From NCBI RefSeq assembly GCF_000973105.1, contig NC_015844.1:4150501-4214500 (forward strand): DNA of 64,000 nt. Reading direction: 5' to 3'. This document shows positions 26,177 to 46,479 of this stretch, piece by piece (the stretch's first letter is position 1; every line of letters starts with the position of its first letter). A model generated the notes under the pieces. The model worked only from the letters and a program-made list of their open reading frames with translations, was not told the DNA's origin and made no database searches. Both the position numbers and the translations under genes were made by a program. This DNA comes from Zobellia galactanivorans (lineage in GTDB: Bacteria; Bacteroidota; Bacteroidia; Flavobacteriales; Flavobacteriaceae).

Positions 26177-28477
26177 TTAGTTATAAGCTGATATTTTAAA
26201 TAGGGAAACAGGTATATGCCTTTCTTTTTTGCTAAACTCGAAGACCAATGCATCGGTACTAATTGCTTCGTCCAATTCAATGGTGTTTATGGCCTGGTAA
26301 TTTCCTTTGACTTCCTTTAAGAGTTTGCCGGAAGCATCCTTGACCGTATAATTGTCCACCACAAAAGGAATGACATCTTCCGGATGTCCCATAAGGGTAG
26401 TTTCCAAGGCGTGGTCATAGTCGCAGTCAAAAAAGAGTTTTATGCTTTTTATATTGACTTTATCGTCCCATTTTAAGTGCAGTGTCGGTTTTTTATCTTC
26501 TATTTCGGCAACCCAAGCATTGGTGTTTCCGTTAGCGTTGGGCCGAACTTCGCCGTTTTTGATATTATCGGGTTCAAAAATAGGTAGGGCCTTTGCCATT
26601 TGAAGGGCTATATTTTTTCCTTTAGGACGGCGTTCGGGGGTCCAAAACTCAAAACTGTCAACATTGATGTCGGCCGGAGGGTCTTGTCTTCCGTAATTGG
26701 ATACCGCTTTATTTATTTTATTCTCAACAGTCATTAAACCTGTGATACGCTCATCTGAAAGACGGACTTTTACCTTTTCGTTTTTCATTAGGCAGAAGAA
26801 CGAATAATGATCTTGCTCCTGTGTTTTGGTAGTGGTAAAAGTAATTTTTTGTTTTCCTTTTTGTAAGTCGACTTCCTTTTTATCAATAACCACATCTGGG
26901 GTAAAATGGTTAGGGGTCGAACAACTTTTAAGCTGAAGTTCTAGGCTGGTTGCTTCCGAGGCATCTACTTCAATTTCAAAACTATAGGTTTCGTTCGCCT
27001 TAAGCGGTAGCATTTGGGCAAGTCCGAACTTTAGGGGGTGCCAGTCGTCGGCTTCCGAAAAACCTTTGAATTTCAAGCTAGAGCTCGCTTCTACATTCGC
27101 CTTTGCTACCAAGTCATCGGTGTCGTTCAGGGCGATGCGGGGAATACTTTGTCCGTTTCTGTTCAAGGCCAGTTGCAGCTTTGCAATGTGTTCTTTGGAA
27201 GCAATGTCTTTAGGAAGTAAACCTTCTTCTTTACATAGAACTGCGGCTTGACCTACCGCTTGGGCTCCGTGTGCACAGGTGAGCATAACCCTTGAAGAAC
27301 CAAAGGCCACATGACTGGCACTGATAATCCGGCCCGCAAGGAACAGGTTCTCGATGTTTTTTGAATAGTAGCAACGGTAGGGTATGGAATATACGCCTTT
27401 ACCATGCCATTGGGTACAAGAGTTGTGTTCGCTATAGATGCCATCGGCGGGATGCAAATCCATGGCCCAACCGCCAAAGGAGACCGCATCGTAATAATCG
27501 CGTTGTTCGACAATATCTTTTTGGGTCAGCATAAAGTCGCCTTCAAAACGACGGCTTTCCCGTTTGCCGGGTATGGTGCCTACCCATTCTAACGTTAGGT
27601 TGGCCGCTTCGGGAAACTTGCCACTGTTCTTTACATAGTCCCAAATCCCATAAACCACCTTCCACAGTTCAAATTTAATGTCTTCCGATTGATGGACGGT
27701 ATCGAGGCGTCCGCCGTGCTCTACCCACCACAATTTACAACCATGGTCGCCTAATTGAAAGTTTTTGATACGTGGAAGTTCTTCTGCATTCTTTATGGCA
27801 AAGGAGGGAGGCGTATAGCTAATAGGCTTGCCTACATCTTTAGTGTAAAAGTACAGAGAGTGCCCTAAAAGGTTGCCATAATCTTCGATATTCGGTGCGA
27901 ATCCCTCATCAAACTCCTCTTTGGTCTCCGCCCCCATACGGAACGAGGCTCCGGCCATAAAGGCAACAATACCATCACCGGAAGCATCACAGAAAAGTGG
28001 GGCGCTGGCGATATAGGTCGTTGAGTTCTGGCTACAAAAGGCGGTTACGTTCTTTACCAGGTCGTCTTTGCCTTTTTCAACCTCATAGACCGCTGTATTA
28101 AGTAGAAGGGTAATATTGTTCTCTTCGTATACCTTTTCAAGCAGTACGGTGTCGAACAACAATGGGTTGCCTTCTTTATTTCGTTTTAGGTTATCCAAAA
28201 GGATTTCATTGATCAATCCGCCTTCACGGCTCCATCGGTTGTTGTTGCCCATGTGAGAGGTGGCACCCAGGCTCCACAGCCGAACCTCTGACGAGGCGTT
28301 TCCACCAAGTACGGGACGGTCTTGTATAAGAACGACTTTTAGGCCGGATCGTGCCGCGGTTATGGCGGCACAGACACCTGAAAGACCTCCACCGACGACA
28401 ACAAGGTCGGCCTGTAGTTTTACGGTCTTTGTATTTCTCGTTTGTGGACTATATGCTTCTGAAATCATAAAATGCAA
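26177..28477 (-). CDS. FAD-dependent oxidoreductase, no signal peptide, with C-terminal sandwich domain
   Basis: The 766-residue product has an N-terminal Rossmann motif VVVGGGLSG (27-34) and the DRPVLGGNASSEVR motif of the FAD_oxidored family. GKRESRR and a second FAD segment (NLFLAGRIISASH) follow. Residues beyond about 480 form one or two beta-sandwich-like domains rich in aromatic residues. No signal peptide is visible, so it is either cytoplasmic or exported by an unseen route. It is a paralogue of the exported enzyme at 39230. The substrate is unknown; relatives often sit in polysaccharide loci. It lies directly behind the symporter gene and may act on the imported sugar. Confidence 0.85.
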   Translation of the reverse strand: MHFMISEAYSPQTRNTKTVKLQADLVVVGGGLSGVCAAITAARSGLKVVLIQDRPVLGGNASSEVRLWSLGATSHMGNNNRWSREGGLINEILLDNLKRNKEGNPLLFDTVLLEKVYEENNITLLLNTAVYEVEKGKDDLVKNVTAFCSQNSTTYIASAPLFCDASGDGIVAFMAGASFRMGAETKEEFDEGFAPNIEDYGNLLGHSLYFYTKDVGKPISYTPPSFAIKNAEELPRIKNFQLGDHGCKLWWVEHGGRLDTVHQSEDIKFELWKVVYGIWDYVKNSGKFPEAANLTLEWVGTIPGKRESRRFEGDFMLTQKDIVEQRDYYDAVSFGGWAMDLHPADGIYSEHNSCTQWHGKGVYSIPYRCYYSKNIENLFLAGRIISASHVAFGSSRVMLTCAHGAQAVGQAAVLCKEEGLLPKDIASKEHIAKLQLALNRNGQSIPRIALNDTDDLVAKANVEASSSLKFKGFSEADDWHPLKFGLAQMLPLKANETYSFEIEVDASEATSLELQLKSCSTPNHFTPDVVIDKKEVDLQKGKQKITFTTTKTQEQDHYSFFCLMKNEKVKVRLSDERITGLMTVENKINKAVSNYGRQDPPADINVDSFEFWTPERRPKGKNIALQMAKALPIFEPDNIKNGEVRPNANGNTNAWVAEIEDKKPTLHLKWDDKVNIKSIKLFFDCDYDHALETTLMGHPEDVIPFVVDNYTVKDASGKLLKEVKGNYQAINTIELDEAISTDALVFEFSKKERHIPVSLFKISAYN

Positions 28478-28533
28478 TTTGAACTTTAATAATTTGATTT
28501 GGTGTGTTAAGGAAAAAATGTAGGTAGAGCCGC

Positions 28534-30192
28534 TTAGCCTGAAATATTTTGACTCGATTTATAGATAATAAAACTGCCTAACAGTAAGACAAAAAGTCCC
28601 ATTCCACCTACGAGTACCGCTCCGGTTTCGGCCATGAATGATAGTATTACGATCAATAGACCGGTTAGGGCTACGCCTATACCTATGACCCGTGTGCCTT
28701 TTTGGTTTCCGGAAGCGGATTCTTCTTCCGCCTCCAAATTTTTATCGGCAACTTTAAGTTGATAGTTGTCGTAGGCTATGGTCGGTTTTTTCTGTGTACG
28801 GGCATATATTTCAAATGCCGCTAAAAGCAGTACGGGAATACCCATGCCAAATCCCATTTCTTGGGCCCTGTCAAACGAAAAATCGAGAAGGCTAGGGGCC
28901 AAGAATTTAAAAAAAGCGTTGATGGCCAAAGTGACTACGGTAACGATCAAGGCACTTTTGCCCGTTTGGTATTTACTGAACAAGGCCCACATGGGAGGTA
29001 AGAACATGGCACCGCCCGTTATGGCCGCCAAACTCATGACCACTTCTACGATGCCGCCCATATATGGTACCAAGAGGGCGATTATAATTGTCAGTATGCC
29101 CAAACCTATGGTTGCCATTCTACCGACTTTGACCAATTGATCGTTGTCGGCATTGGGCCTAAAATGTTTGTAAAGGTCATTGGACAGGACACCTGCCGAG
29201 ATGTTTAAAGTTGTATTGACCGAACTCGATGTGGCAAAGATCATTCCGCCTAACATTAACCCCAACATTCCTACGGGCAGTACTTCCTTACACATTAAGA
29301 GATAGGCCCCTTCGTCGGCCAAGCCGCCCAAATCTGGGTTCAGTACCCTATAGATCATAGGGGGCAACATCCAAACTAACGGACTAACGAGATAGAGTCC
29401 GCCGAAAAGCCATCCTACTTTTTTGGCATCTTTTGGGGTGGCCACACTGGTATAGCGTTGTACATAGGCCCAATTGCCCGCAATGAAGAAGAGGTTGTAC
29501 AATCCAAAGGCAATCATAAAGCCCCATGTGTACTCCTCATTTACCAAATTGAAAAAATTCTCGGGTGCTTGCGAAACAAAGTTCCCTATGCCCCCAATTT
29601 TATCAAGTGAAAGCGGTACCACGATTAAAACGGCCGCAGTAAGTACTACAAACTGAAGTACATCGGTAACGATTACGGCCCAAAGGCCGCCAACTGCCGT
29701 GTAAATTAAAATTAAGATTCCCAGTACGATTATGCTGGTACTTATGGGGAAACCTGTTGATACCTCTACAATCTTGGCTACGGGATATAAAAATGCACCA
29801 GTAGTAAAAATGGATATTAACAGGAACAGATACGTATAAATTTTTTGAGTGCTGTAACCTAAGCGGTCCGTAATGAACTCGGCGGCGGTCAGCGCTTTGG
29901 TTTTTTGCCATTTCGGGGCGATGAAAAAACCGATAAGTACACCGGCTATGCACATGGTCGTTTGAATGGTGATAGCTACCCAGCCGCTGGAATAGGCTAT
30001 GGAGCCCCATACCACAAAGGTACCCGCGGAAAAGAAACTCATAAAGAGAGAAAGTCCGCTCATCCACCAGGGCAGTGCCCCGCCTGCGGCAAAAAATGAC
30101 TTCATGTTTTTACCGGACTTTGAGAAACTTAGTCCGCATACAAACACGAGTAAAGTAAAAATTAGTATTACCGTAATATCTATGGTGCCCAT
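28534..30192 (-). CDS. sodium/solute symporter (SSS family)
   Basis: The 552-residue protein is a typical SSS-family inner-membrane transporter with 13-14 hydrophobic segments. It has an N-terminal FSKSGKNMKSFFAAGGALPWW motif region, then repeated transmembrane helices and a short charged loop (KNLEAEEESASG) before the last helices. It should use a sodium gradient to import a small sugar or sugar acid released in the periplasm. It is the first gene after the SusC/SusD terminator and starts the operon that continues through the oxidoreductase, hydrolase and GH97 genes. Confidence 0.92.
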   Translation of the reverse strand: MGTIDITVILIFTLLVFVCGLSFSKSGKNMKSFFAAGGALPWWMSGLSLFMSFFSAGTFVVWGSIAYSSGWVAITIQTTMCIAGVLIGFFIAPKWQKTKALTAAEFITDRLGYSTQKIYTYLFLLISIFTTGAFLYPVAKIVEVSTGFPISTSIIVLGILILIYTAVGGLWAVIVTDVLQFVVLTAAVLIVVPLSLDKIGGIGNFVSQAPENFFNLVNEEYTWGFMIAFGLYNLFFIAGNWAYVQRYTSVATPKDAKKVGWLFGGLYLVSPLVWMLPPMIYRVLNPDLGGLADEGAYLLMCKEVLPVGMLGLMLGGMIFATSSSVNTTLNISAGVLSNDLYKHFRPNADNDQLVKVGRMATIGLGILTIIIALLVPYMGGIVEVVMSLAAITGGAMFLPPMWALFSKYQTGKSALIVTVVTLAINAFFKFLAPSLLDFSFDRAQEMGFGMGIPVLLLAAFEIYARTQKKPTIAYDNYQLKVADKNLEAEEESASGNQKGTRVIGIGVALTGLLIVILSFMAETGAVLVGGMGLFVLLLGSFIIYKSSQNISG

Positions 30193-30236
30193 TCTTGTTT
30201 ATGAATATACTTTATTATTCTTGTTTATGTAGTGAA

Positions 30237-30269
30237 AAAATAGGGGATAGACCTAATATCCCCTATTTT
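30237..30269 (-). terminator. strong hairpin terminator after the SusC/SusD genes
   Basis: A perfect 13-base-pair stem (AAAATAGGGGATA at 30237-30249, TATCCCCTATTTT at 30257-30269) has a 7-base loop. On the minus strand it is followed by TTTTTT. It lies between the SusD-like gene, which ends at 30303, and the symporter start at 30192. It would let the SusC/SusD pair be expressed more strongly than the enzymes behind it, either by full termination or by partial readthrough. Confidence 0.8.
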
Positions 30270-30302
30270 CAAAAAAACTAACAAAAACAAAATCAATGAA
30301 TT

Positions 30303-32111
30303 TTAATACCCGGGATTTTGGGTTACGACATTCTCGGTAGCATCAATCTCGGCTTGGGGTATGGGCCATAGGTAATGCTTTCCGGGATCGAATGTTCTTT
30401 CTTCCAATTCCCTATAATCAAGGTTCCCCAGTTCAACCCTTGGTTGTGAGGGAGCCCCGGTGTAATCGATATAACCGTCATCATCAATATTGGGAACAAA
30501 GTCTAAATCCCCTATTTTGCTGAAGCCGTTTGCAGGTCCGCCCAAAACGGTGGTATTTAATACTTTTTCGGCTATTTTCCATCTTCTTATATCGAAGAGG
30601 CGTAAACCTTCGTCGGCAAATTCTACCTTGCGTTCCCTTCTGATTATTTTTCTGAGTTCGGCCTGATCGGTAGTCGTTACCTCGGGATATGTAAAGCCAC
30701 TATTGTTGTAAGCACGTTCACGTACATCGTTGATGGCATTTAATACACTTGCATCTATGGTTCCGGCCTCTATTTTGGCTTCAGCATAGTTCAATAATAC
30801 TTCGGCGTACCTCATAAGGTAAATGGTCTGTTCCGATTGAAGGGGACTTGGTCCTCCGGTCAATGAACCCAATAACCTAGGGGCGTCAGAGAATTTTTTC
30901 CAGAAATAACCCGTAAAGGCCGTAAAGCGGTTGGCTCCTCCGGTTACATACTCGGTACCATCATAGGGATCTATGATTTTTCGTCCTGCCGGGTTGGCCG
31001 CATTAGGGTTAAAGACTCTTTCCACCTTTACACCATCTTCTATACGCCAAGTCGCGATACTGTCACTGTGTTGTTGAATGATGTGACCTGTCCATATGTT
31101 ATTTGGTAGCGCAATCGTAGCCGCCAAACGGGGATCACGGTTTTCAAACGGATTGGCAGGGTCAAAATCAGGATCTTCATCAATGGGAAGTCCGTTTACG
31201 GTCTCATAACTATCGACTGTTTGTTGGTTGGGTACCAATTGGCACCATCCACCGAAACGACTTCCTTGTACTTGAGAAAGACTGTGTGTTTTTGTGCCGT
31301 TCATGTACGAAAGGTCAAGTAAGACTTCAGCGGAGCCAACACCTGAATCGGTAAATAAGGCTTCGTAGTCGGGGTATAGGCTAGGCGCCTCGGGGGAGTT
31401 CATAACCTTGAGTGCAGCCTTTTCGGCCAGTTCATAATCTTCGTTGTAAAGCGCGATACGTGAAATCAGTGCATTGGCGGCATTGCCCGAAGCCCGTCCT
31501 CTTTCGTTGGCCGATTGGGTAGGGGGCAAGATCGCGGCAGCTTCCTCTAAGTCAGAAATGATGCTCGCAACGATTTCAGCTTTGGGCGTTCTGGCGATTA
31601 TTTCAAGATCTTCCAATGAGGTTACCTCTGTCCTAAAGGGAACATCACCATAGAGCTCGGTCAAATAGCTATAGAAGAGGGCTCTTAAGAATAAAGCCTC
31701 GGCCTTGATCTGTTCGAAGCGATTGGGGTCTGAAGCGTCTTCGGCCTTGTTCATGTTGGTGAGCAAGTTGTTGGCGCGTTGGATGCCTGTGTAGAAATTG
31801 TCCCAGAAACCGTTTACGATTGCCTCGGTAGAAGTAACACCACCGGTAGTGACCGCTACGGTACCTCCGACATTACCCCTGTTGTAGGCATAGTCGGTGG
31901 TGTGATCCAATAATTGTGGAAAAGGAACATTTCGCACGTAGTTTAGACTTTCATAGACTCCCGTAAGGGCAACTTCTAGTTGCGCTTCGGTTCTAAAGAA
32001 AGTTGCATCCGTAGGACTGCCCGGGTCTTCTAAGTTCAATACGGTGTCTTCACAAGCAGGGAAAACCAGCAAGCTTAGACTTATCAAGATGATATATTTT
32101 ATATTTTTCAT
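30303..32111 (-). CDS. SusD/RagB-family surface glycan-binding lipoprotein
   Basis: The 602-residue lipoprotein (lipobox ending PAC, C20) has the SusD hallmarks: N-terminal LEDPGSPTDATFFRTEAQLEVALTG-type region, tetratricopeptide-like helices with AEALFLRALFYSYLTELYGDVPF, and a C-terminal RERKVEFADEGLRLFDIRRWK motif before YLWPIPQAEIDATE and the terminal NPGY. It sits on the outer membrane over the SusC channel and captures polysaccharide fragments. It begins 18 bases behind the SusC gene. It is the only SusD-like protein in the window. Confidence 0.96.
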   Translation of the reverse strand: MKNIKYIILISLSLLVFPACEDTVLNLEDPGSPTDATFFRTEAQLEVALTGVYESLNYVRNVPFPQLLDHTTDYAYNRGNVGGTVAVTTGGVTSTEAIVNGFWDNFYTGIQRANNLLTNMNKAEDASDPNRFEQIKAEALFLRALFYSYLTELYGDVPFRTEVTSLEDLEIIARTPKAEIVASIISDLEEAAAILPPTQSANERGRASGNAANALISRIALYNEDYELAEKAALKVMNSPEAPSLYPDYEALFTDSGVGSAEVLLDLSYMNGTKTHSLSQVQGSRFGGWCQLVPNQQTVDSYETVNGLPIDEDPDFDPANPFENRDPRLAATIALPNNIWTGHIIQQHSDSIATWRIEDGVKVERVFNPNAANPAGRKIIDPYDGTEYVTGGANRFTAFTGYFWKKFSDAPRLLGSLTGGPSPLQSEQTIYLMRYAEVLLNYAEAKIEAGTIDASVLNAINDVRERAYNNSGFTYPEVTTTDQAELRKIIRRERKVEFADEGLRLFDIRRWKIAEKVLNTTVLGGPANGFSKIGDLDFVPNIDDDGYIDYTGAPSQPRVELGNLDYRELEERTFDPGKHYLWPIPQAEIDATENVVTQNPGY

Positions 32112-32129
32112 TGTATAGAAATTATGCGA

Positions 32130-35100
32130 TTAGAATGTTACGTTAAGGCCCATTGTGAAAACCTTGGTTACAGGGTAAAAACTACCTTGTGAAAATTGTG
32201 GGGTCAATGGGTCTATACCTTCTGGCATATGGTCCCAAGTGGCTAGGTTTTGACCCGACACATAGATTCGAGCGGCAGAAATACTGAACTTGTCGATCAG
32301 GTCGTAGGGTAATTTATACCCGAGGGTTACGTTTCTTAACCTTACATAGGAGGCATCGTGCATCCAGGTTTCGTTCACGCGCCAGTTCGGGTGTGAACTT
32401 CCTGGGGTCAAGCGGGGGTATTGGGCGTTCGTATTGGAGGGTGTCCAATAGTCGGCTTGCCATTCTTGGATTTTTCCTGCGTTATAAAAGGCCCAACCAG
32501 CATCTCCTTCCAAGACCACATCCCTTCCTCCGGCACCTAACAAGGAAACCGAAAGGTCAAGGCCTTTGTAAGCGGAAAATAGCTCAAGTCCCCAGTTTTC
32601 AGTAGTAATATTGCTACCTATAATGGTTCGGTCATCATTGGTGATCAAGCCATCTGGAACCCCTTCTGGACCTGAAATATCTGAATATTTGATGTCACCT
32701 GCTTGAATGGCCCCAAAACCAGGTGTGGGCAAGGAAGCGTTGAGGTTTCCGTCTACGTCAAAATCACTTTCTTGGTAAAGACCGTCTACCTTTAGGCCGT
32801 AGATTGCACCAATTTCTTCCCCAACACGATTAATGGTGTTTCCTGGAGGCAATTGGTCAAGGCCGCCCAAGCTTTTGATCTCGTTATCAAAACCGGAGTA
32901 ATTGATGTTGATGCCATAGCGAAAGTTTTCGCCGATCATATCGTTCCAACCCAAACTGATGTCGTATCCTGTGTTCCAGACTTCACCCGCATTCTGTACA
33001 GGGGCCTCTAAACCAACCGATGTGGGTATGGTAACGCCTAAAAGGATGTCTTTTGTTTTACGAACATAATACTCACCGGTAAAGGATAATTTACTATTGA
33101 GAAATTTGGCATCTACACCAATGTTTTGGGTTTCCCCGGTTTCCCATTGCAATTGCGAATTGGCCAAAACCAATTGGGCTCCACCTACGGTAGGTGTACC
33201 ACCGATAACGGCATTGGCATTACCAAGGCCGAAAAGCGAGGTGTAGGGGAAGTTGACTTCTTCTGCCACGGCCGAACCGTCGGCACCTTGTACGGCATCC
33301 CCATTATTGTCGGTCTTGTTGGCCGAAAAGATGAACTGGTTGCCCAATTGTCCCCAAGAAGCCCTGAACTTTAAAAAGTTAATCGTTTCATTATCTTTTA
33401 GAAAGTTCTCTTCCGATGCTACCCAGCCCACTGAAAAAGAGGGGAAGGTGGCCGAACGATAACCTTTGGCAAAACGGGAAGAAGCATCTTTTCTAACATT
33501 GGCCTCAAATAGATATCTATCCTTATAGGTATAGTTGATCCGTCCGAATAAGGACTCCAATCCGTTAAGGGTTGAACTACCTGAGTTTAATTGCGTATCG
33601 GGCAATCCGTTGTCTAAGCCCCTAAATTCATCTAGAACGAATCCTCTCCTGCTAGCGGACCATACTTCCGATTTGAATTTTAGAAATTCATATCCTCCTA
33701 AGACAGAGATGTCGTGATCACCAAATTTCTTGCCCCAGTTGGCAACGGCGTTAAAGTTGTCTTGGAACGTAGTGAAAGTTTCTTTAAATAGGGAACTTTC
33801 AGACTTACCGGCGCCAAGAGTACTTTGAGCAGGTCCGCCAGAACCTTCGTAATAGGTGTATTTAGCCCTATAATCATCTTGGTCCCTGTCAAAGAATTGA
33901 GGGGCATAGGTGGCCGAGATAGAAAAGTTGTTAAAAGGTCTATAGGTCACTTTTGCCAAAGCCCTGAAGTAGTTTGAAATGGTTTCATCCTTTGCGGACG
34001 AATTGGCCAAGGCCACAGGGTTACTACCTCCAAAACCAGGACCGTAAGTGCCATCATCGTTATAGGCGATGAACAGGGGCTGAAGGCGGTATGCTGAACG
34101 GGTAATGTCTTGAAGACGGGCGGGTTGACTTTTTTGTTCCCTTCTAAAGTTGAGGTCAAAGGCCAAATCTAGCTTTTTGCTTAGGGCATAATCTAGGTTG
34201 AACCTACCGTTATATCGTTTAAACTTGAAGTTGGCGATGTTACCGTCTTGGTCGGTAAAAGATATGGAACTGGCCACTTTAAGTTTTTCAGATCCCCCAC
34301 GAACCGAAAGGCTGTGGTATTGCTGTACGGCGGCCGAATTAAAAAGCAGGTCTACCCAATCGGTGTCGGGCAAGGTTTCGGTACCTACGCCATTACCAGA
34401 ACGGTATTGGTTGAGTATGTCATCGGAAAAAGCACCAGGTTCTGCAGAGTTAAAAGCTTCCATATAACCAAGTCCATCCAAGAACTTTAAGTTTTGCGCT
34501 ACGCTCTGTATTCCAACATAGGTATTATAGGAAGTACTTATTTTTCCCTCTTTACCTCTTTTGGTAGTAATAAGGATTACCCCGTTGGCAGCACGTGAAC
34601 CATATATGGCCGCTGCCGAGGCATCTTTTAAAACGGAAATGGATTCAATGTCACTGGGATCTAATCCGTTGATGTCGTCAGGAATACCATCGACCAAAAT
34701 CAAGGGGTTGTTTTTGGCGCCATTACCTAAAGTTCCCACCCCGCGAATACGAATGGCAGCACCGTCTGAGCCCGGTTGGCCACTAGATTGGGTAGCTGTA
34801 AGACCGGGAACAAGACCTGCCAATGCCTGCGAGGCCTGGGCAACGGGTTGCTTAGCTATTTCCTCGGCCTTTACGGTTTCTACCGATCCGGTAAGGTTGA
34901 CCGCCTTTTGTGTTCCGTACCCTACTACGACCACCTCATCGAGTTGTGAGGCTTCTTCTGCCATGGTTATGTTTAAGGTTGTTTCACTGTTAACGGTTTT
35001 TTCAACGGTTCCATAACCGATTGAGCTGAAAACAAGGGTTGCCCCTTCTTGGGTTTCAATGCTAAAGTTTCCGTCGAAGTCGGCAACAACTCCGTTGGTC

Positions 35101-35237
35101 GTTCCCTTTTCAACAATGTTGGCAGCGGGTATAGGGATACCCTGTTCATCGCTTACGGTACCTGAGACCGTAATTTGTGCCGATATTTCGCAAAGCGCGA
35201 ATATCGATAGGAGAAAAAATAAGACCGCTTTTTTCAT
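32130..35237 (-). CDS. SusC/RagA-type TonB-dependent transporter
   Basis: The 1035-residue outer-membrane transporter has a signal peptide, then a carboxypeptidase-regulatory-like domain (about 22-98: VSGTVSDEQGIPIPAANI, FDGNFSI). The plug follows (DEVVVVGYGTQ, about 100-220), then a beta barrel ending in a terminal phenylalanine (LNVTF). It imports oligosaccharides with energy from TonB. It is the only SusC in the window although about 50 kb of enzymes surround it, so it is the sole visible importer for the locus. Its control region contains the tandem TCTAGT sites near 35303 and a Bacteroidetes-like promoter. Confidence 0.97.
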   Translation of the reverse strand: MKKAVLFFLLSIFALCEISAQITVSGTVSDEQGIPIPAANIVEKGTTNGVVADFDGNFSIETQEGATLVFSSIGYGTVEKTVNSETTLNITMAEEASQLDEVVVVGYGTQKAVNLTGSVETVKAEEIAKQPVAQASQALAGLVPGLTATQSSGQPGSDGAAIRIRGVGTLGNGAKNNPLILVDGIPDDINGLDPSDIESISVLKDASAAAIYGSRAANGVILITTKRGKEGKISTSYNTYVGIQSVAQNLKFLDGLGYMEAFNSAEPGAFSDDILNQYRSGNGVGTETLPDTDWVDLLFNSAAVQQYHSLSVRGGSEKLKVASSISFTDQDGNIANFKFKRYNGRFNLDYALSKKLDLAFDLNFRREQKSQPARLQDITRSAYRLQPLFIAYNDDGTYGPGFGGSNPVALANSSAKDETISNYFRALAKVTYRPFNNFSISATYAPQFFDRDQDDYRAKYTYYEGSGGPAQSTLGAGKSESSLFKETFTTFQDNFNAVANWGKKFGDHDISVLGGYEFLKFKSEVWSASRRGFVLDEFRGLDNGLPDTQLNSGSSTLNGLESLFGRINYTYKDRYLFEANVRKDASSRFAKGYRSATFPSFSVGWVASEENFLKDNETINFLKFRASWGQLGNQFIFSANKTDNNGDAVQGADGSAVAEEVNFPYTSLFGLGNANAVIGGTPTVGGAQLVLANSQLQWETGETQNIGVDAKFLNSKLSFTGEYYVRKTKDILLGVTIPTSVGLEAPVQNAGEVWNTGYDISLGWNDMIGENFRYGININYSGFDNEIKSLGGLDQLPPGNTINRVGEEIGAIYGLKVDGLYQESDFDVDGNLNASLPTPGFGAIQAGDIKYSDISGPEGVPDGLITNDDRTIIGSNITTENWGLELFSAYKGLDLSVSLLGAGGRDVVLEGDAGWAFYNAGKIQEWQADYWTPSNTNAQYPRLTPGSSHPNWRVNETWMHDASYVRLRNVTLGYKLPYDLIDKFSISAARIYVSGQNLATWDHMPEGIDPLTPQFSQGSFYPVTKVFTMGLNVTF

Positions 35238-35283
35238 AAGCTTTAGTTTTAGTTGAGAGGTGAATAGTGAGTTATATAGGGTC

Positions 35284-35318
35284 GACCGTACTAGATTACA
35301 AGTCTAGTCTGGTCTAGT
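35284..35318 (-). promoter_or_regulatory. operator-like tandem sites for the GntR-type regulator (site A)
   Basis: The sequence contains TCTAGT-CTGG-TCTAGT (35303-35318), with an inverted partner ACTAGA nearby (35290-35295). A 13-base block here, GACCGTACTAGAT (35284-35296), recurs in reverse complement in site B at 41066-41078. It lies directly downstream of the candidate promoter, where a bound repressor would block transcription. The core GGTCTAGT resembles known GntR operators of the TGGTCTAGACCA type. Confidence 0.6.
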
Positions 35319-35623: not shown

Positions 35624-36640
35624 ATGGTAAAACTTAGTATCGAAAAGAACTCGAAGAAGCCCAAATATCTTTTACTTGCCGATAGTATTACGTCACAGAT
35701 CGAACAGAAGCAGTTGGTACTGGACGAAAGGTTGCCATCGGTGAACAAGCTCTCGGCGCATTTTAATTTCAGTCGGGAAACGGTTTTTAAGGCATTGAAC
35801 CATTTGAGTGAAAAGGGAATCGTTAGGGCGGTCGACAAAATCGGTTATTTTGTGAACGATCTTTCGGTAGAGACCGAGTACAAGGTGTTTTTTATGCTCG
35901 ATAAGTTTACGCCTTTTAAGGAAGATCTTTATAACTCATTGATTTCGAGTTTAGGAGATAAGGTCAAAGTGCGTCTGTATTTTCACCATCAGAATATTGA
36001 GATATTTGCTCCGTTAATTCTGGATAACTTAAAGAATTACACCCATTTTGTAATAACCACCTATATCAAGGATTCTAAATCCGTTCAAAAGGTGTTGAAC
36101 AAGATACCGCCGGAAAAGTTGATCATTCTTGATAAATATGAACCTAATGTCAACAATGGATGCGGCATGGTCTTTCAAGATTTTGAAAACGATATTTTCA
36201 ATCTATTGGAGGAACATATCGAATTGGTCAATAAATATCAAAGATTGGTCCTTTTCAACCGCAGGAATGCACCCCATGGTGATTTTGTCCAAAAAGGTTT
36301 TGAGCGGTTCTGTTCGGAACACCAATTTAAAGGCGATGTATACGATGATTTTTCTCCTGATTATTTTGAAAAGGGAAGTCTGTATATTACCATTGATGCC
36401 TATGACCGTGATATGGTAGAGATCATAAAACTGGCGCGTAAATCGAACTGGAAGCTTGGCAAGGAAATCGGACTCATAAGTTATAACGACACTAGCACCA
36501 AGGAGATTTTAGATGGAGGTATTTCGGTAATCAGCACCGACTTCAAGAAAATGGGCGAGGAGGCCGCCAAAATGATATTGGAGGGGCGAAGGGAGCGAAA
36601 GGGCAATGAAACCAAATTGATTTTAAGAAGCTCGCTCTAA
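35624..36640 (+). CDS. GntR-type regulator with sugar-binding-protein-like C-terminal domain
   Basis: This 338-residue transcription factor is the only plus-strand gene in the polysaccharide locus. Residues about 8-75 form a GntR winged helix-turn-helix (LPSVNKLSAHFNFSRETVFK, LNHLSEKGIV). The remainder resembles the type I periplasmic-binding-protein fold used by LacI-type regulators as a sugar sensor, with GLISYNDTSTKEI and VISTDFKKMGEEAAKMIL near the end. It should bind a sugar released from the substrate and control the locus. Tandem sites before the SusC gene and the oxidoreductase operon are plausible operators. Confidence 0.9.
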   Translation: MVKLSIEKNSKKPKYLLLADSITSQIEQKQLVLDERLPSVNKLSAHFNFSRETVFKALNHLSEKGIVRAVDKIGYFVNDLSVETEYKVFFMLDKFTPFKEDLYNSLISSLGDKVKVRLYFHHQNIEIFAPLILDNLKNYTHFVITTYIKDSKSVQKVLNKIPPEKLIILDKYEPNVNNGCGMVFQDFENDIFNLLEEHIELVNKYQRLVLFNRRNAPHGDFVQKGFERFCSEHQFKGDVYDDFSPDYFEKGSLYITIDAYDRDMVEIIKLARKSNWKLGKEIGLISYNDTSTKEILDGGISVISTDFKKMGEEAAKMILEGRRERKGNETKLILRSSL

Positions 36641-36648
36641 CATTCCGA

Positions 36649-38091
36649 TTACATCAGCTGCGCAAATACTTTCTTGCGCTGAACGGCATAATACCAAAAA
36701 AGCAGCGAGATTATTAAGGTAAGGATACCGCCTCCCATATAGGCCAAGTCATTGTCCAATTGAAAGCCTTCCGGGGCGATAAGAATGTAGGTGGTGCATA
36801 CCATCGTCATAAAAAGGGCAGGTATAAGGGTAATCCAAAACATCTTTTGTTCGTAGATCAAGTAGGCGGTAATCGTCCATAGGACAACCGTGGCCAAGGT
36901 TTGGTTGCTCCAGGCAAAATACCTCCATATTATTCCGAAATCGATTTGGGTAAGGGCAAAAGCGATGATGAAAAGAGGGACACTGATATAGAGCCTGTTC
37001 TTGATTTTCTTTTGGTCGTTCTTGAAAATGTCGGATAAAATCAGCCTTGCCGAGCGAAAAGCGGTATCACCAGATGTAATAGGGGCCGCTACAATACCCA
37101 ATAAGGCCAAAATGCCGCCTACATGCCCCAACATATTCAGCGATATTTCATTGGCCGCCCAAGCTGCGTTATTCCCGTTGGCCAACATGGCTTCATTGAG
37201 TCCGCCTACATTTCCGAAAAAAGTCATGGCCGCCGCCGCCCATATAAGGGCCACTACGCCTTCGGTAATCATCGTACCAAAAAAGATTTTTCGGCCCAAT
37301 CTCTCGTTTTGCATACAACGTGCCATGAGTGGCGACTGGGTCGCGTGAAAGCCTGATATGGCTCCACAGGCTATGGTTACGAAAAGTATGGGAAAAAGTG
37401 GGGTTGCTTTGGGGTCGGTGGTCATGTTCCTTAAGTTGGCAGGCGTCAGTTCTGGAATCTGGTAATCGCCGAAAAATAGGGCAATGAGCAAACCCAAGGC
37501 CATTAAAAGCATGGCAATACCAAAAACGGGATAAAGTTTGCCTATCATTTTATCAATCGGCAGCAGGGTAGATAAAATGTAATAGGCGAGAATTATTCCT
37601 ACCCAAACCCAAAGGTTCCACATATTACCGGTCATGCCGTCTATGATTTTTGCCGGCCCCATCAGAAAAACGGTACCTACAAAAATCAAGAGTATCACCG
37701 TGAAGAACCGCATGATATGTTTCATTTTAGGTCCTAAGTAAATTCCAACGATTTCACTTATGCTTAATCCATTATGGCGAACGGAGAGCATGCCCGAAAA
37801 ATAATCGTGGACGGCTCCTGCGAAAATACTTCCCAGTACGATCCACAGAAAGGCGGCAGGACCGAACATGGCTCCTGCAATGGCCCCGAAAATGGGGCCT
37901 AGGCCCGCGATATTTAAAAATTGGATAAGAAATATGCGCCAAGCGGGCAGGGGCATAAAATCAATATCGTCACGTAAGCGTATTGCCGGGGTTTCCCTTT
38001 TTGTATCGATACCAAAGATGTTTTCCACCAATTTTCCATAGGTGTAATATCCGATAACCAACACAGCAATAGCAATAACGAACGATATCAT
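36649..38091 (-). CDS. cstA: CstA-family transporter
   Basis: The 480-residue inner-membrane protein belongs to the CstA carbon-starvation family, with about 12-13 hydrophobic segments and the conserved GLGPIFGAIAGAMFGP and GAISGFHATQSPLMARCM motifs. Characterised relatives take up peptides or pyruvate. It is shorter than the E. coli protein, as is common in Bacteroidetes. It ends 8 bases from the regulator gene's end, with the two genes convergent, and follows the oxidoreductase pair in the same direction with a 23-base gap. Import of a small product of the pathway is a possible role. Confidence 0.85.
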   Translation of the reverse strand: MISFVIAIAVLVIGYYTYGKLVENIFGIDTKRETPAIRLRDDIDFMPLPAWRIFLIQFLNIAGLGPIFGAIAGAMFGPAAFLWIVLGSIFAGAVHDYFSGMLSVRHNGLSISEIVGIYLGPKMKHIMRFFTVILLIFVGTVFLMGPAKIIDGMTGNMWNLWVWVGIILAYYILSTLLPIDKMIGKLYPVFGIAMLLMALGLLIALFFGDYQIPELTPANLRNMTTDPKATPLFPILFVTIACGAISGFHATQSPLMARCMQNERLGRKIFFGTMITEGVVALIWAAAAMTFFGNVGGLNEAMLANGNNAAWAANEISLNMLGHVGGILALLGIVAAPITSGDTAFRSARLILSDIFKNDQKKIKNRLYISVPLFIIAFALTQIDFGIIWRYFAWSNQTLATVVLWTITAYLIYEQKMFWITLIPALFMTMVCTTYILIAPEGFQLDNDLAYMGGGILTLIISLLFWYYAVQRKKVFAQLM

Positions 38092-38114
38092 AAAGTAAGG
38101 GTTTAAAGGGGCAA

Positions 38115-39233
38115 CTAGCTGTAATCTTCTAAAAATTGAACAACAATATAGGCATTCTTCTCTTTAGATGAAGCGGCAAAGCGCCGTAGGTTTTCCAATA
38201 TTTCGGCAGATAATGACTTTTTATCTTCCAAATGCGATAGAAACTTGAGAAGCTGGTTTTTGGTCAATACACCCAATTGTGTCGAAATCGCGGTTACCGT
38301 AGCCTCCGAAGCGGTATCGATATGCTTCAGGAGTAGACTTCGGGTATTGATGTCAATATGCGGTAGGGCATCCCAAAAGGGCTGCATGGTCGATGGCGAT
38401 TGGGTAAACATATCGGCCAGGTTTTTAATGATGAAGGACCGGACCAGAGGAATTCCCGATTTAAAAAGCTCCGAAATTCTAGGGAAATTGGCCTTGTATT
38501 GATTCTGGTCAAGGTTTTCCAAGGCATACATTTGGTAATTGGTATGTGTACTGTTGAGCATACGAAGCAACATATCTTCATTTTGTTGCCCAAGCGTATA
38601 TGCTTTTAGCTCTTCCTTGATTTTACCATGGACCAAGTGCCAGGCCACATAACAGGAGTAGAGTGCGCCCGACACAACGGATTCTTTCACCTCTTTTACC
38701 GTTGCTCCCGACAAGGCATCGACACCTTCTATTTTAGAGGGCTTCGGTTTGGTGACCAGTTCATCGATGGCCCTTCTCTTTAAAATGGAATTATGGTCTT
38801 GAAGCAATTCGTGTAGCTTCCAGTAATCGGTGAATAAAAACTCGTCATGGTCGTGTTTGGTCAATGGCTCTTCAACAGAGCGGTCAAATCCGGCATAATC
38901 GCCCAAGAGCGTCCAGTATAAGGTAATATGCATCAGTTTACAGTCGCCATCGGCACAAACGGGAGTAACAATATTGGAGGAATACAGTACGGGCGCGCGG
39001 TCTTTGTTACGCAGTATGTTTATTTTTTGGGCCCCGACCGAATCTACCATTATGGTCATAGGCGTTTCCGCGATATCAAGCACGGAGCCTTCTTCCCAGT
39101 TTAAGACGAAGAACTCCGGACTGGTATCCAGGGTTGTTCTTTTGGAATTATTGGGAAATGCGATAGCCGACCCGAATTGCGCTTCACAAAGATGGGATAC
39201 AAGCAAGAGGAAGACTATGGCAATCTGTCTCAT
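38115..39233 (-). CDS. exported protein with flavinylation-like SGAT motif and helical repeats
   Basis: The 372-residue product has a signal peptide (about 1-18). The segment VDALSGATVK (171-180) closely matches the site where ApbE links FMN to a threonine in FMN-binding domains (here T178). A cysteine pair is present at 93 and 98. The C-terminal half is a series of helical HEAT-like repeats. Its start codon overlaps the end of the exported FAD oxidoreductase gene by four bases (ATGA), a sign of translational coupling. It may be an electron-transfer partner of that enzyme. No ApbE gene lies in this window. The family is not one I can name with certainty. Confidence 0.65.
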   Translation of the reverse strand: MRQIAIVFLLLVSHLCEAQFGSAIAFPNNSKRTTLDTSPEFFVLNWEEGSVLDIAETPMTIMVDSVGAQKINILRNKDRAPVLYSSNIVTPVCADGDCKLMHITLYWTLLGDYAGFDRSVEEPLTKHDHDEFLFTDYWKLHELLQDHNSILKRRAIDELVTKPKPSKIEGVDALSGATVKEVKESVVSGALYSCYVAWHLVHGKIKEELKAYTLGQQNEDMLLRMLNSTHTNYQMYALENLDQNQYKANFPRISELFKSGIPLVRSFIIKNLADMFTQSPSTMQPFWDALPHIDINTRSLLLKHIDTASEATVTAISTQLGVLTKNQLLKFLSHLEDKKSLSAEILENLRRFAASSKEKNAYIVVQFLEDYS

Positions 39234-41023
39234 TTTTTAGAGGTGGGAATTTTTTCGTATTTCTGCTCCTCGATCAAATTCAGGTATTCGTCTAAATAGC
39301 CGGTGTATATATCACGGGGCATAACCTCGTATTTTTTACATAGGGAAGCCGCATAGCCTACGGCCGCACCCATCTGTCCCGTGGTAAGCATAACCCTCGG
39401 TCCGCCGAGTCCCGCATGCGAACAACTGAAGTTACGCCCGGCCATAAACAGGTTCTTGATGTTTTTTGAATACAGGCTTCGGTAAGGAATGTAGTATTGT
39501 GGTCCTCTATAAAAAAGGGCTTCGGAAATGAAATCTGGATTTTTCTCGTCTTCCAAGACCGTTTGGTAATGCACGTCTACCGCTCGTTTTTCGATAACTA
39601 CACCATCGGGAAATTTGCGTCCTTCCTTGGCATCGTTAAACGTAAAGATATGATCGCCCACCAATCGTCTTGATTCGCGCTTACCGACCAAATAAGAAAC
39701 CCATTCCAGCCTTCGGTTTTTGTTGACCTCGTCTTTTTTGGCGTTGGAAAACGAACCATATATGGCACGAAGCATATGGTCGCGTATTTCTTCGGCGTCG
39801 TCAATTTGGCTTAGGTCGTTTCGGCTAAACTCCCACTGCCATTCGCCATTGACCTCGGCATAGTCTTTTGCGACCGGCATGGCCCAAGGTACTTCAGGAA
39901 AGCTCTGGGGCGTATCGGTGTCGGTAGACCCCCAAAGTACGGAAGAACCCATGACGGCGTTATCGGCTTCCTTCGGGCTCCATAGTTCGCCATGTTCTTC
40001 CCAGTGTTCTCCGTAGGTATCGACACTTTCCCGACCGTACGAGAATTCGGCACCTGCCCAGAAACCGATCCAACCATCACCGGTAGAATCGACAAAATAG
40101 GGGGCCGTAAACCGTTTTCTTTCCCCTGTAAAGGTTTGTCTGGCATCTACGTATTTGATACTGTTATCTTCGGAAATGGCATCATAGGCACGCCAGTTCA
40201 GAAATAAGTCGATGTTCTCGTAACTCTTAACGTTTTGATCTCTTTTTTGTTGGTCGAACTTGGCCTCGGCCGATCCATTAGGATAATGTTTGGTATCAAT
40301 TTTTGTTAGGATGCGCTCAAAATTACCATAAATGCCCTCGGTGTGTACCCGAATTTCTTCACTGGCATTCCCGCCTAAGACGGGCCGGTCATGAATTAAG
40401 GCAACCTTCAGTCCTTGTTCGGCTCCTGCTATGGCTGCCGCACAACCTGCCAGTCCGCCACCGACAACTACCAGGTCATAGGTTTTTAAGTCTTCGGGGG
40501 CATTGGGTTCGGCGGTAATTTCTTGACGCCAAGCGGTCAATTTTTTTAAGGAAGAGGGGGGCGTGGTTTTTTTTGTCGAAAAATAGATGGCATCGCAACG
40601 CCCGTTAAAGCCCGTAAGGTCTTGCAGTTCAATGTGAGTGGCTTGTTTTTTATTGATTTTGGCCTGTCCGGCGTACTGCCATCCCCAACCGGAGCGGGTT
40701 CCTAAAACCGTGTCGAGCACGGTTTGGTTTACCTTTAATTGAAATCTTCCGGGGGCTTCCCATTCGCCGGGAACCCAGTTCATGGTACGTACCCAAATAT
40801 GATAGGTGCCCGATTTTTTAAAATTAACCTTTGTAGATGCATTTTCTACAGGTTTGCCCATGCCGTGCGCATTGAGATAAGGCGAGCCCATTTGCTCCAC
40901 GAATTGTGGATCTACGACCCAACCGCCAGGGTTGTCAAAACTCTCTGCTTCAACAAGCATATCTTGTGATAAGACATAAAACGAGCTGAAAATTATACAT
41001 AAAAAGGTCAATACATTTCTCAT
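39230..41023 (-). CDS. exported FAD-dependent oxidoreductase with N-terminal binding domain
   Basis: The 597-residue product has a signal peptide (about 1-19) and a beta-sandwich domain at about 22-150 (MLVEAESFDNPGGW, GTYHIWVRTMNW) of the type seen in carbohydrate-binding modules. An FAD_oxidored domain follows with VVVGGGLAG (186-193), DRPVLGGNASEEIR, GKRESRRLVGD and NLFMAGRNFSCSH. It is a paralogue of the signal-less enzyme at 26177. Export of a flavin enzyme of this type implies Sec or Tat routing that I cannot decide; no twin-arginine is seen. It starts its own operon under operator-like site B, coupled to the SGAT protein. Confidence 0.85.
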   Translation of the reverse strand: MRNVLTFLCIIFSSFYVLSQDMLVEAESFDNPGGWVVDPQFVEQMGSPYLNAHGMGKPVENASTKVNFKKSGTYHIWVRTMNWVPGEWEAPGRFQLKVNQTVLDTVLGTRSGWGWQYAGQAKINKKQATHIELQDLTGFNGRCDAIYFSTKKTTPPSSLKKLTAWRQEITAEPNAPEDLKTYDLVVVGGGLAGCAAAIAGAEQGLKVALIHDRPVLGGNASEEIRVHTEGIYGNFERILTKIDTKHYPNGSAEAKFDQQKRDQNVKSYENIDLFLNWRAYDAISEDNSIKYVDARQTFTGERKRFTAPYFVDSTGDGWIGFWAGAEFSYGRESVDTYGEHWEEHGELWSPKEADNAVMGSSVLWGSTDTDTPQSFPEVPWAMPVAKDYAEVNGEWQWEFSRNDLSQIDDAEEIRDHMLRAIYGSFSNAKKDEVNKNRRLEWVSYLVGKRESRRLVGDHIFTFNDAKEGRKFPDGVVIEKRAVDVHYQTVLEDEKNPDFISEALFYRGPQYYIPYRSLYSKNIKNLFMAGRNFSCSHAGLGGPRVMLTTGQMGAAVGYAASLCKKYEVMPRDIYTGYLDEYLNLIEEQKYEKIPTSKK

Positions 41024-41065
41024 AGTGGGAATATTAAATCAGGTACGGAACTATCTTTTTTGTAA

Positions 41066-41082
41066 ATCTAGTACGGTCTGGT
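41066..41082 (-). promoter_or_regulatory. operator-like tandem site (site B)
   Basis: TCTAGT-ACGG-TCTGGT at 41067-41082 matches the tandem of site A (TCTAGT-CTGG-TCTAGT) in 13 of 16 positions and in the same orientation relative to the gene. The block ATCTAGTACGGTC (41066-41078) is the exact reverse complement of a block in site A. It lies about 45 bases before the start codon at 41023. Confidence 0.6.
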
Positions 41083-41212
41083 ATGGTTTCGGTAAATATA
41101 TAAAATTATTTTTAATATAAATATCGGGGGTATAATAAGTGATGTTAATAGGTTTTGTAGGAGGAATTTATGGATTTGATAGTTTGGGGAAAGGGAAGCT
41201 ATAGATTTAAAA

Positions 41213-41245
41213 AAAAATCCCCTCGGCATAACCGAAGGGATTTTT
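41213..41245 (-). terminator. Rho-independent terminator after the GH2 gene at 41267
   Basis: ATCCC-C-TCGG (41217-41226) pairs with CCGA-A-GGGAT (41232-41241) over a 5-base loop. On the minus strand a run of T follows the stem. It ends the long operon that arrives from the right, 21 bases after the GH2 stop codon. Confidence 0.8.
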
Positions 41246-41266
41246 AGAAGGTTCAAAGGTGATTTT

Positions 41267-44182: not shown

Positions 44183-44217
44183 ACTATAACGATCTAAGTG
44201 TTTTGAATTAAAAGATC

Positions 44218-46479
44218 TTACTTCTCTTTTTCCAGTTCTTCGATCGTCCAATAGTCTTCACGATCTTTTTGACTGTTCCGAACGTTTCTAACCTGCCATG
44301 CGCCAATACCCTTCGAATCGTTTAAGTGCATTCTGATATAGGTCAATACACTGGCGATGTAGTCATCGTCTTGTTGTTTCATGCCGACCATAACCCCTGA
44401 GTACTCCTTGCCGTCAATAGGACCTGTTAGTCCGTTTAGAAGAATTTTTACCGGGATATCCCATTTTTTTGCGGTTACCCTAGGGGAGCCGATCAATGAA
44501 GGGGCCATACCTTCAATTCCTTCGCCGTTTTTGCCATGACAAGAGGCACATAGGTTTTTGAAATGGGTATATCCGTTAACAATTCTATTTCGGGTATTGC
44601 TACTCTCTAGAACGTATTGCCTTTTGATCTGTTCGATTTCCCGGGGAATCTCTTTTAGGCTTTCCTTACCGATAACCGCTATAACCTCATTGCTTGGGTG
44701 GTTGGCCATAATTTCGGAAATGGTTTCTTTGCCCGCCTTGTCCTTGGCCGACCTTAGGGAGAGTACCACTTGCTGTAACACCTCGGGTTCGTTGTCATTT
44801 TTCAGGGCTTTTACAGCCTCAAGAACGCTTGAATCTCCAGCAGCCAACAAGGGCTCTCCTACGCGTAAGGCCGCCATGCGTACGCGGGCGTCCTTATCTT
44901 GTAGCGCGGTCAATACAAGGGCTTTGTCAATGGCATCGAGGCCCTCTAATGTCCAGATGGCGTGGAGCCTGCCCAAGGCATAGTCGGCATTCCCGAACAT
45001 AGAACCGATAAAGGGTTCGCCTCCGGTAACTATATCCTTTAAATCGGAAACGATAGCCTTGTCTTGTTTGAGTACCAATAGCTTTTGGGCGGTTAGCCGG
45101 TACCAGCCGTTCGGATGGTGTAAATAGTCTAATAGTGCATCACTGGATTTGTGTAATAGGTCTTCTTGTTTTGAAGGGGCGATTTGGTCGTGGACCACTC
45201 TGTAGATCCGTCCTTTTCCTATGTTCTTGTCAAAGCCTTTTCGTTCTACCACGGGACGTAGAAAGCTACCTTTTCTGACCCAGTTGCCTTCTTGTATGAT
45301 ACCTCGGTACATATCTACCACATACAGGCAGCCATCAGGGCCGGTCTGGGTATCCACAGGTCTAAAGTTGGTGTCGGTAGATGCCAGGAATTCGGTTTCA
45401 CCATAAGGGTTTGACAATACTTTTTTACCGTTTACGATATTGACTTTGGCCCTGCGGATCAAGCGTCCGACAGGTTCAGGAATGAAGAGGTCGCCGTACA
45501 TGGGGAGTTTGTCGCCCAAGAAAATCGACTGTCCGCAGCTAGCCGTAAAATGGTTCAATGTACCATCTTCGCGCAAGCGGCCAAAACCACCCTGAACGTC
45601 AGGTGTTCCGATAATGGGCCATACTTTTTCAAAACCTTCTTCCCATTTTCCTTCCATTTCCAAATTGCCGTAATAGGGGTGTTGTTGATAGCCCAAGGCG
45701 GGAGTCTCGCCTCCTGCGCTGGAATAATAGATTTGGCCGATTTCATCCTGTGTCATACCCCATTGTCCGGAGGGGGCATCCATGAGGGTGTCGATTTCCA
45801 TTTCACCTTTGGCAAAACGGTATCGTAGGGAACCGTTGGATAGATAAAGATAATTGTCTAAGCCCCATATCATGGTGGCGGACTGATGTTCTAAGTTGGC
45901 GTTGTCGCGTTTGTCATTTTTAAGGATGAGTTTTTTTTCATCGGCCACGTTATCGCCATCGGTATCACGGTAGGTGTATAGGCTACGATTGTAGGTTTCC
46001 CCGATAATGACACGGTCATCGAGCGGAAGCAGTATTCGAGGCAGGATCAAGCTATCTACGAATACGGTACTTTTGTCCATTTTTCCATCGCCATCGAGGT
46101 CTTCTAAAACCGAGACCCGGCTCCATGGCTCGTTTTCATCGGTACCGTCTATATCTTGCATATAGGTCAACATTTCGGCCACATAGAGTTTGCCATCGGG
46201 GCCCCAAGCAATAGTAACCGGTTCGTTGATCATGGGTTCACTGGCTACGAGTTCCATATGGTAGCCTTCGGGAAGGTACATGTTCTTCATGCTTTCTTCG
46301 GGAGACATAAAAGTCGAAGGGGGATCTTTTACCAATTCGGGTTTGGTGTAAATAAGGTCTGTATAGACCGGCTTTTCTTTTTTACAGTTGCTAAGCGTCA
46401 TCATGATGGCGGGTAGCAGTAAAAATAAATTACCTCTTTTTAGGAGACTTCTTTTAAGGTGGTAGATGGTTTGATACAT
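44218..46479 (-). CDS. propeller-HEAT-cytochrome c fusion lipoprotein (membrane-bound dehydrogenase-type)
   Basis: The 753-residue lipoprotein (lipobox LSNC, C32) combines three parts. Residues about 65-430 form a propeller of the membrane-bound dehydrogenase/PVC type (LPEGYHMELVASEP, VAEMLTYMQDID, DMYRGIIQ). Helical HEAT-like repeats follow (450-620), then a cytochrome c domain with the haem motif CASCH (644-648) and a likely axial methionine in GVMVGMKQ. Relatives are thought to oxidise sugars or alcohols with electrons passing to the haem, though few have been tested. It lies 35 bases before the acid/base-less GH2 gene in the same operon. Confidence 0.88.
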   Translation of the reverse strand: MYQTIYHLKRSLLKRGNLFLLLPAIMMTLSNCKKEKPVYTDLIYTKPELVKDPPSTFMSPEESMKNMYLPEGYHMELVASEPMINEPVTIAWGPDGKLYVAEMLTYMQDIDGTDENEPWSRVSVLEDLDGDGKMDKSTVFVDSLILPRILLPLDDRVIIGETYNRSLYTYRDTDGDNVADEKKLILKNDKRDNANLEHQSATMIWGLDNYLYLSNGSLRYRFAKGEMEIDTLMDAPSGQWGMTQDEIGQIYYSSAGGETPALGYQQHPYYGNLEMEGKWEEGFEKVWPIIGTPDVQGGFGRLREDGTLNHFTASCGQSIFLGDKLPMYGDLFIPEPVGRLIRRAKVNIVNGKKVLSNPYGETEFLASTDTNFRPVDTQTGPDGCLYVVDMYRGIIQEGNWVRKGSFLRPVVERKGFDKNIGKGRIYRVVHDQIAPSKQEDLLHKSSDALLDYLHHPNGWYRLTAQKLLVLKQDKAIVSDLKDIVTGGEPFIGSMFGNADYALGRLHAIWTLEGLDAIDKALVLTALQDKDARVRMAALRVGEPLLAAGDSSVLEAVKALKNDNEPEVLQQVVLSLRSAKDKAGKETISEIMANHPSNEVIAVIGKESLKEIPREIEQIKRQYVLESSNTRNRIVNGYTHFKNLCASCHGKNGEGIEGMAPSLIGSPRVTAKKWDIPVKILLNGLTGPIDGKEYSGVMVGMKQQDDDYIASVLTYIRMHLNDSKGIGAWQVRNVRNSQKDREDYWTIEELEKEK

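Follow-up and report, generated by a model that had tools for sequence, protein, structure and literature searches.

Flavinylated domains are known to carry electrons for extracytosolic enzymes that resemble fumarate reductase (PMC8238504 section 16), and for an alcohol oxidase a flavinylated protein has been proposed to serve in place of cytochrome c (PMC8238504 section 17). The text of that paper mentions neither carbohydrate nor Bacteroidetes nor sulfatase. The motif for ApbE, D-x-x-[S/T]-G-A-[S/T], is short; these seven residues suffice, and FMN is placed on the last of them (PMC12052999 section 8).

By the usual model, polysaccharide loci act through hydrolysis or elimination, followed by uptake. 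The locus described here lies in a 64,000-nt stretch of the Zobellia galactanivorans genome, hereafter the window, which spans positions 4150501-4214500 of a single 5,521,712-base contig. The locus includes a predicted exported FAD_oxidored enzyme that we call FADox2 (39230..41023, minus strand). The gene overlaps by 4 nt that of a predicted exported protein with an SGAT motif (38115..39233, minus strand), hereafter the SGAT protein. By analogy with the flavinylated fumarate-reductase-like enzymes and the alcohol oxidase partner (PMC8238504 sections 16-17), we consider it probable that these two proteins form an extracytosolic flavin relay inside a polysaccharide locus and oxidise a sugar. Among the titles and abstracts searched, which took in few subscription journals, no paper on this pair was found.

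The most similar described systems are UrdA urocanate reductase and Listeria FrdA (PF00890 plus an FMN-binding domain), which resemble the pair in joining a covalent FMN domain to an extracytosolic FAD domain whose fold is broadly alike. However, the FAD domain of the pair belongs to PF12831 rather than PF00890, FMN would be carried by a protein of its own that scores below the Pfam cut-off for FMN_bind, FADox2 is longer by an N-terminal domain, and the genes reside in SusC/SusD loci. The exaA alcohol oxidase and its flavinylated NapH-like partner (PMC8238504 section 17) share with the pair a flavinylated acceptor proposed instead of cytochrome c, but that system combines an alcohol oxidase with a NapH-like protein and has no polysaccharide locus. 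The FAD-GO or GMC glycoside oxidoreductases (AA3) come from the same genus and have likewise been proposed to carry out flavin-dependent glycoside oxidation, but they are of the GMC family rather than PF12831, and the available portion of their description mentions no SGAT or ApbE partner (PMC6950322). No GMC oxidoreductase family was detected among the 39 window ORFs scanned, and none of these ORFs was thereby recognized as a GMC glycoside oxidoreductase. NqrC-type and other FMN_bind proteins are exported and ApbE-dependent. They have the motif VDA-x-x-GAT in common with SGAT proteins, which differ from them in having added HEAT-like repeats and in a profile similarity confined to the motif columns discussed below.

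Judged from its sequence, the window holds a polysaccharide utilization locus with a SusC/SusD pair, carbohydrate-active enzymes, and sulfatases. A Pfam scan found S1-type sulfatases and GH2, GH43, GH97, and alpha-L-fucosidase (GH29-type) genes in addition to SusC/SusD. The SusD and SusC genes (30303..35237, minus strand) are marked by PF07980 in SusD and by TonB Plug and CarbopepD_reg_2 domains in the SusC-type protein. A gene for a GntR-type regulator (35624..36640; PF00392 and PF13377) lies on the opposite, plus strand between SusC and a CstA-like gene, and this position is kept in Zobellia relatives. Directly upstream of the window is another SusD/SusC-like pair (L137; L numbers denote loci), and directly downstream (L138) are two sulfatase-like genes, two unlabelled genes, and a GH2-like gene. 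This flanking gene order matches that of ZGAL_3580/3581 and ZGAL_3629-3633 in the accessible part of PMC5698469, a match of sequence with partial text that would place the window between these genes. Both groups are reported there as carrageenan-induced (PMC5698469 Table 1). Among the genes named in the accessible parts of three expression papers (PMC5698469, PMC9296495, PMC5613140), none could be placed in the window locus.

Several other proteins of the window and of related loci deserve mention. On either side of a glutamate-dehydrogenase-type gene is a gene whose protein has a C-terminal GreA/GreB domain (4396-4947 and 6967-7383). Large locus proteins at 54202-56682, L079:5472-7979, and L126:12849-15401 match no Pfam family above cut-off, and the latter two, which are recurrent proteins, have no significant match in the PDB. 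All three possibly represent new carbohydrate-active families.

To follow the pair across genomes, a simple script was used for ORF calling. Profiles built here identified the FADox, SGAT, and ApbE genes of the neighbourhoods, and the remaining neighbourhood labels were assigned by similarity to window proteins, with Pfam used only where cited. The search covered Bacteroidota, and other phyla entered only through a scan of named genomes (best 80 of 189 relatives). A first search located SGAT homologues at 20 places in 18 of 149 genomes, the source genome included, and wide neighbourhoods were examined for 18 of the 20. In 17 of these a FAD_oxidored gene is next to the SGAT gene, the exception being L043. 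In the named-genome scan, 78 of the 79 SGAT ORFs called have a FAD_oxidored gene adjoining on the same strand, and the remaining one (L080) starts at a contig edge. The SGAT ORF of one further locus (L131) was not called by the script, and the same arrangement is present there when the frames are read.

All sets combined, with duplicates, the window's own protein, and L131 excluded, comprise 97 distinct SGAT proteins, and a FAD_oxidored gene directly adjoins the SGAT gene on the same strand in 94. These loci are related by descent, and the counts given here are not counts of independent events. The three other loci are L080; L152, in which an ApbE gene stands in between; and L043, which has no FAD_oxidored neighbour. 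The next most common labelled family directly beside SGAT is CstA, in 25 loci, and unlabelled genes are found there in 39. Over 96 pairs the gap between the two genes ranges from -113 to 127 nt, with the 4-nt overlap recurring in 28. Both gene orders occur, FAD-SGAT in 55 loci and SGAT-FAD in 37, with FADox genes on both sides in two more, and one change of order on the tree suffices. A SusC or SusD gene is found within seven genes of SGAT in 60 of the 97 loci and a sulfatase in 35.

The pair is carried by Zobellia, Arenibacter, and other flavobacteria, by Saprospiraceae/Lewinellaceae, and by Cyclobacterium, Spirosoma, Larkinella, Runella, Chitinophaga, and Parapedobacter, among others. The locus L094, titled Thalassovita, has SusC/SusD genes and was probably misbinned. 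In two other Zobellia genomes, another SusC/SusD locus (L036, L037) holds a second pair of SGAT and FAD_oxidored genes. An even sample of Bacteroidota, in which no more than five candidates per genome were scored, gave SGAT matches in 9 of 395 genomes. In one of the nine (G125) the match is weak and lies outside the motif domain, covering profile positions 202-308 only, and its locus (L154), which has neither SGAT nor FADox, was excluded from the counts.

When the same 395 genomes were searched in the reverse direction, with the best three candidates per genome, all six matches of the FADox2 type above 900 bits adjoined an SGAT gene. No SGAT gene is found in the 20-kb stretches around more distant FAD_oxidored relatives. 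The link between the two families is therefore one-sided, because FAD_oxidored relatives without an SGAT neighbour exist. FAD_oxidored relatives with twin-arginine-like leaders occur in four sulfatase-rich or SusC/SusD loci that have no SGAT gene within 20 kb (L208, L211, L212, L213).

The SGAT protein carries the predicted flavinylation motif DALSGAT at residues 172-178 (38700..38720, minus strand), which fits the published ApbE motif (PMC12052999 section 8) and makes Thr178 the proposed FMN site. All 82 aligned SGAT proteins have D172 and T178; G176 is kept in 80 of them and A177 in 81. The frames of L131, read separately from this alignment, have N in place of the motif D. The strict motif is present in 61 of the 97 distinct homologues and D..[STAV]GAT in 93; the 36 that do not have the strict form mostly carry Ala for Ser/Thr at position 4. 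The NqrC-type protein of the same genome, which we take to be nqr, also has Ala at this position (DALAGAT). By comparison, the 1111 non-SGAT ORFs in the same neighbourhoods with a length of 150 aa or more all lack the strict motif, which 66 of 105 SGAT ORFs possess; both sets are partly redundant.

No Pfam family matches the SGAT protein above cut-off, and its C-terminus is weakly HEAT-like. The FMN_bind profile (PF04205) reaches 13.2 bits (E 0.15), short of its cut-off of 22 bits, and among 67 SGAT homologues 11 score at E up to 1, the best at 0.028. A profile comparison of SGAT with FMN_bind aligned only 14 motif columns, at 66% probability, versus 0% for a FAD_oxidored control. Homology to FMN_bind across the whole SGAT domain was considered and dropped; with the score below the Pfam cut-off and the alignment restricted to these 14 columns, it is unproven beyond the motif. 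The AF2 model of the SGAT protein (pLDDT 88.3, pTM 0.79) has a helix at residues 2-19, where the heuristic finds a hydrophobic leader, then beta strands (52-118), helices and the motif loop up to about residue 203, and a HEAT-like C-terminus. Foldseek returned no match to this model at E up to 0.001, and the best-ranked entries are mostly helical-repeat proteins. Neither of two matches from a profile search of the PDB is significant: the HEAT part aligned with a 253-aa hypothetical protein (E 0.017), and the motif with CbFMN4, a flavinylated domain (8p2b, E 0.21).

The sub-threshold FMN_bind score could be read to mean that the HEAT repeats give the SGAT protein a structural or scaffolding role, that it holds no flavin, and that its motif is simply part of a loop. 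The model would accommodate such a role, since the loop at the start of the motif (residues 171-174) is of low confidence. A scaffold would not be expected, though, to hold D..xGAT nearly invariant in proteins whose median pairwise identity is 27%, and the absence of the strict motif from the 1111 background ORFs and the adjoining ApbE genes in separate parts of the tree also speak against this reading, to which we assign only a slight chance.

In 15 of the 97 distinct loci an ApbE gene, recognized with the profile built here, is no more than two genes away from SGAT. Thirteen of these have the order SGAT-FADox-ApbE, and in Dyadobacter (L130) and a flavobacterium (L152) the ApbE gene directly precedes SGAT. 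The representative ApbE of the three-gene run matches PF02424 at E 5.8e-70, and an ApbE two places from SGAT recurs in loci of Spirosoma, Rudanella, Runella, Arsenicibacter, and Chitinophaga. The trait is found in three parts of the tree and involves at least five changes, with the placement of L152 unsure on its long branch.

All 41 of the SGAT genomes tested (41 of 80 loci) encode an ApbE, compared with 7 of 14 control genomes; because half of the controls also have one, genome-wide presence is a weak test. The genome studied here encodes three ApbEs and one FMN_bind protein, and no ApbE is near the SGAT-FADox pair in Zobellia. One of the three adjoins DUF3570, a known substrate, and another is in the region of the FMN_bind protein. 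A further ApbE context (L133:7099-8998; G000 near 3265604), beside a thioredoxin-like and a Rieske protein, may be another setting for flavinylation. The SGAT protein combines three features of an ApbE substrate, namely a leader (by the heuristic), the motif, and an ApbE in the same genome. We infer that it is a covalent FMN carrier that would be flavinylated by an ApbE at Thr178.

FADox2 is a FAD_oxidored protein by its match to PF12831 (E 2.4e-63, from residue 183), which covers profile positions 1-410 of 416. Ahead of this domain are a hydrophobic leader and about 160 residues that form an N-terminal domain with the signature 'EAESF..GGW'. The initial annotation described this enzyme as exported with a binding domain. 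A leader is indeed present, but a binding function is unproven, as the N-terminal stretch has no Pfam match. A GH26-CBM35 mannanase ranks 23rd among the fold matches of the whole model, in a table that does not give the aligned part, and the N-terminal domain is possibly carbohydrate-binding. Assigned by a hydrophobicity heuristic and by eye, a Sec-like or twin-arginine-like leader is present in 94 of the 96 FADox proteins that adjoin distinct SGAT genes, the two without one being L069:13490 and L040:7524. About 80 of the 96 carry the 'EAESF' domain, and most others have a twin-arginine-like leader without it. The pair at L069:13490-16503 is odd in that its leaderless FADox has an SGAT neighbour that reads DAVTGET where the motif normally stands.

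The AF2 model of FADox2 (pLDDT 85.8) finds its best PDB fold in flavocytochrome c3 / fumarate reductase, with urocanate reductase at rank 35 among the matches listed; whole-model TM-scores are low (0.19-0.32 among the 50 matches listed). The likeness is one of fold only, as just the first 37-38 profile positions of the fumarate-reductase-like family PF00890 match the two FAD proteins of the locus and neither can be assigned to that family. A sequence search for solved PF12831 relatives yielded none beyond part of the nucleotide-binding region.

These folds lend some weight to electron flow in the opposite direction, as does PMC8238504 (section 16), which names reductases as its characterised flavinylated enzymes. 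FADox2 would then be an extracytosolic reductase fed by SGAT-FMN that acts on an organic acid from algae or on a sugar, either unsaturated or in keto form. A source of unsaturated sugars is wanting in that the Pfam scan of the window named no polysaccharide-lyase family, yet 52348-54021 has a beta-helix match and the window may for this reason hold a lyase after all. The genera that carry the pair are aerobic, which also weighs against a reductase, and we regard this direction as unlikely, if less so than the scaffold role. Sugar oxidation is favoured by the locus context, with reduction also possible. As an oxidative enzyme, FADox2 would most likely dehydrogenate a locus-specific sugar at a hydroxyl or a hemiacetal, and its N-terminal domain may help to bind this sugar. 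The covalent FMN of the SGAT protein would take up the electrons and pass them to the membrane quinone pool or to another carrier.

A different route for the electrons was suggested by the initial annotation, which joined five genes in a redox module. All five are open reading frames, and most were described correctly: FADox1 (26177..28477, minus strand) as a FAD_oxidored protein without signal peptide, the SGAT-motif protein with its leader, a propeller-cytochrome c lipoprotein, and an exported lactonase-fold protein. The cytochrome gene (44218..46479, minus strand) encodes a DUF7133 propeller (PF23500, E 7.3e-94), a HEAT-like part, and one CASCH haem site, and with this site and its score for TIGR02604 'PVC-type heme-binding' (170 versus a cut-off of 122.2 bits) the protein belongs to that family. 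The lactonase gene (7567..8718, minus strand; PF10282, E 1.7e-108), with a lipoprotein-like leader, lies at the locus end. In the proposed module the FAD enzymes would pass electrons to the propeller cytochrome c, and a sugar lactone would be made and then opened by the lactonase. Cytochrome c is the usual electron acceptor of flavin sugar dehydrogenases, and all of these genes share one locus that is syntenic in Zobellia.

The distribution of the genes makes the module improbable, more so than the reductase direction. The cytochrome gene is within seven genes of SGAT in 8 of the 97 loci, all of them in Zobellia, and the lactonase gene is near SGAT in one, while many genera have the pair with neither nearby. 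The lactonase is kept at the locus end in all five extended Zobellia/Pseudozobellia loci; in a sixth locus, which is not from Zobellia (L219), the 20 kb covered do not include it. Both candidates were accordingly rejected, the cytochrome as a conserved SGAT partner and the lactonase as a module member outside Zobellia/Pseudozobellia. What stands of the five-gene proposal is a redox unit that recurs in polysaccharide loci, and the conserved unit is FADox2 with the SGAT protein. FADox2 more likely exchanges electrons with the SGAT protein, which would hold its FMN covalently.

FADox1 matches PF12831 (E 2.1e-91) over profile positions 1-414 of 416 and is thus also a FAD_oxidored protein, 34% identical to FADox2. 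It has a C-terminal extension and no leader, with its nucleotide-binding motif some 24 residues in from the N-terminus. Beside it is a gene for an SSF sodium:solute symporter (28534..30192, minus strand; PF00474, E 4.4e-36), which, like the 4-nt overlap of the pair, had gone unremarked in the initial annotation. Among 20 relatives of the cytosolic type that were long enough to judge (L034 and L082 being one locus), an SSF gene directly adjoins in 15 and is within three genes in 19. FADox1 therefore appears to be a second, cytosolic paralogue that goes with a sodium:solute symporter. The oxidised product of FADox2 would enter the cytoplasm, perhaps through this symporter, and FADox1 would act on it there.

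The CstA-like membrane protein (36649..38091, minus strand; PF02554, E 5.8e-58) is encoded 23 nt after the SGAT gene. A CstA gene is within seven genes of SGAT in 28 of the 97 distinct loci, and it trails the FADox-SGAT pair in many flavobacteria (L034, L038, L058, and others). As guesses, it could take up pyruvate from pyruvylated galactans or serve as a membrane link.

If true, a pair of exported proteins with FAD and covalent FMN that recurs in polysaccharide loci would link the respiratory chain to the breakdown of glycans. The relay would also explain a class of unannotated locus genes and give a function to PF12831 enzymes. SGAT proteins are a candidate family of ApbE substrates that surveys based on the Pfam FMN_bind model would miss. 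We see the arguments as evenly balanced on the broader proposal that these SGAT/HEAT proteins are a new ApbE-substrate family, acting as dedicated FMN carriers for exported, glycan-binding PF12831 dehydrogenases. Bacteroidota from sea and soil would then draw electrons from glycan sugars extracytosolically before uptake, and their loci would represent an undescribed respiratory, oxidative class.
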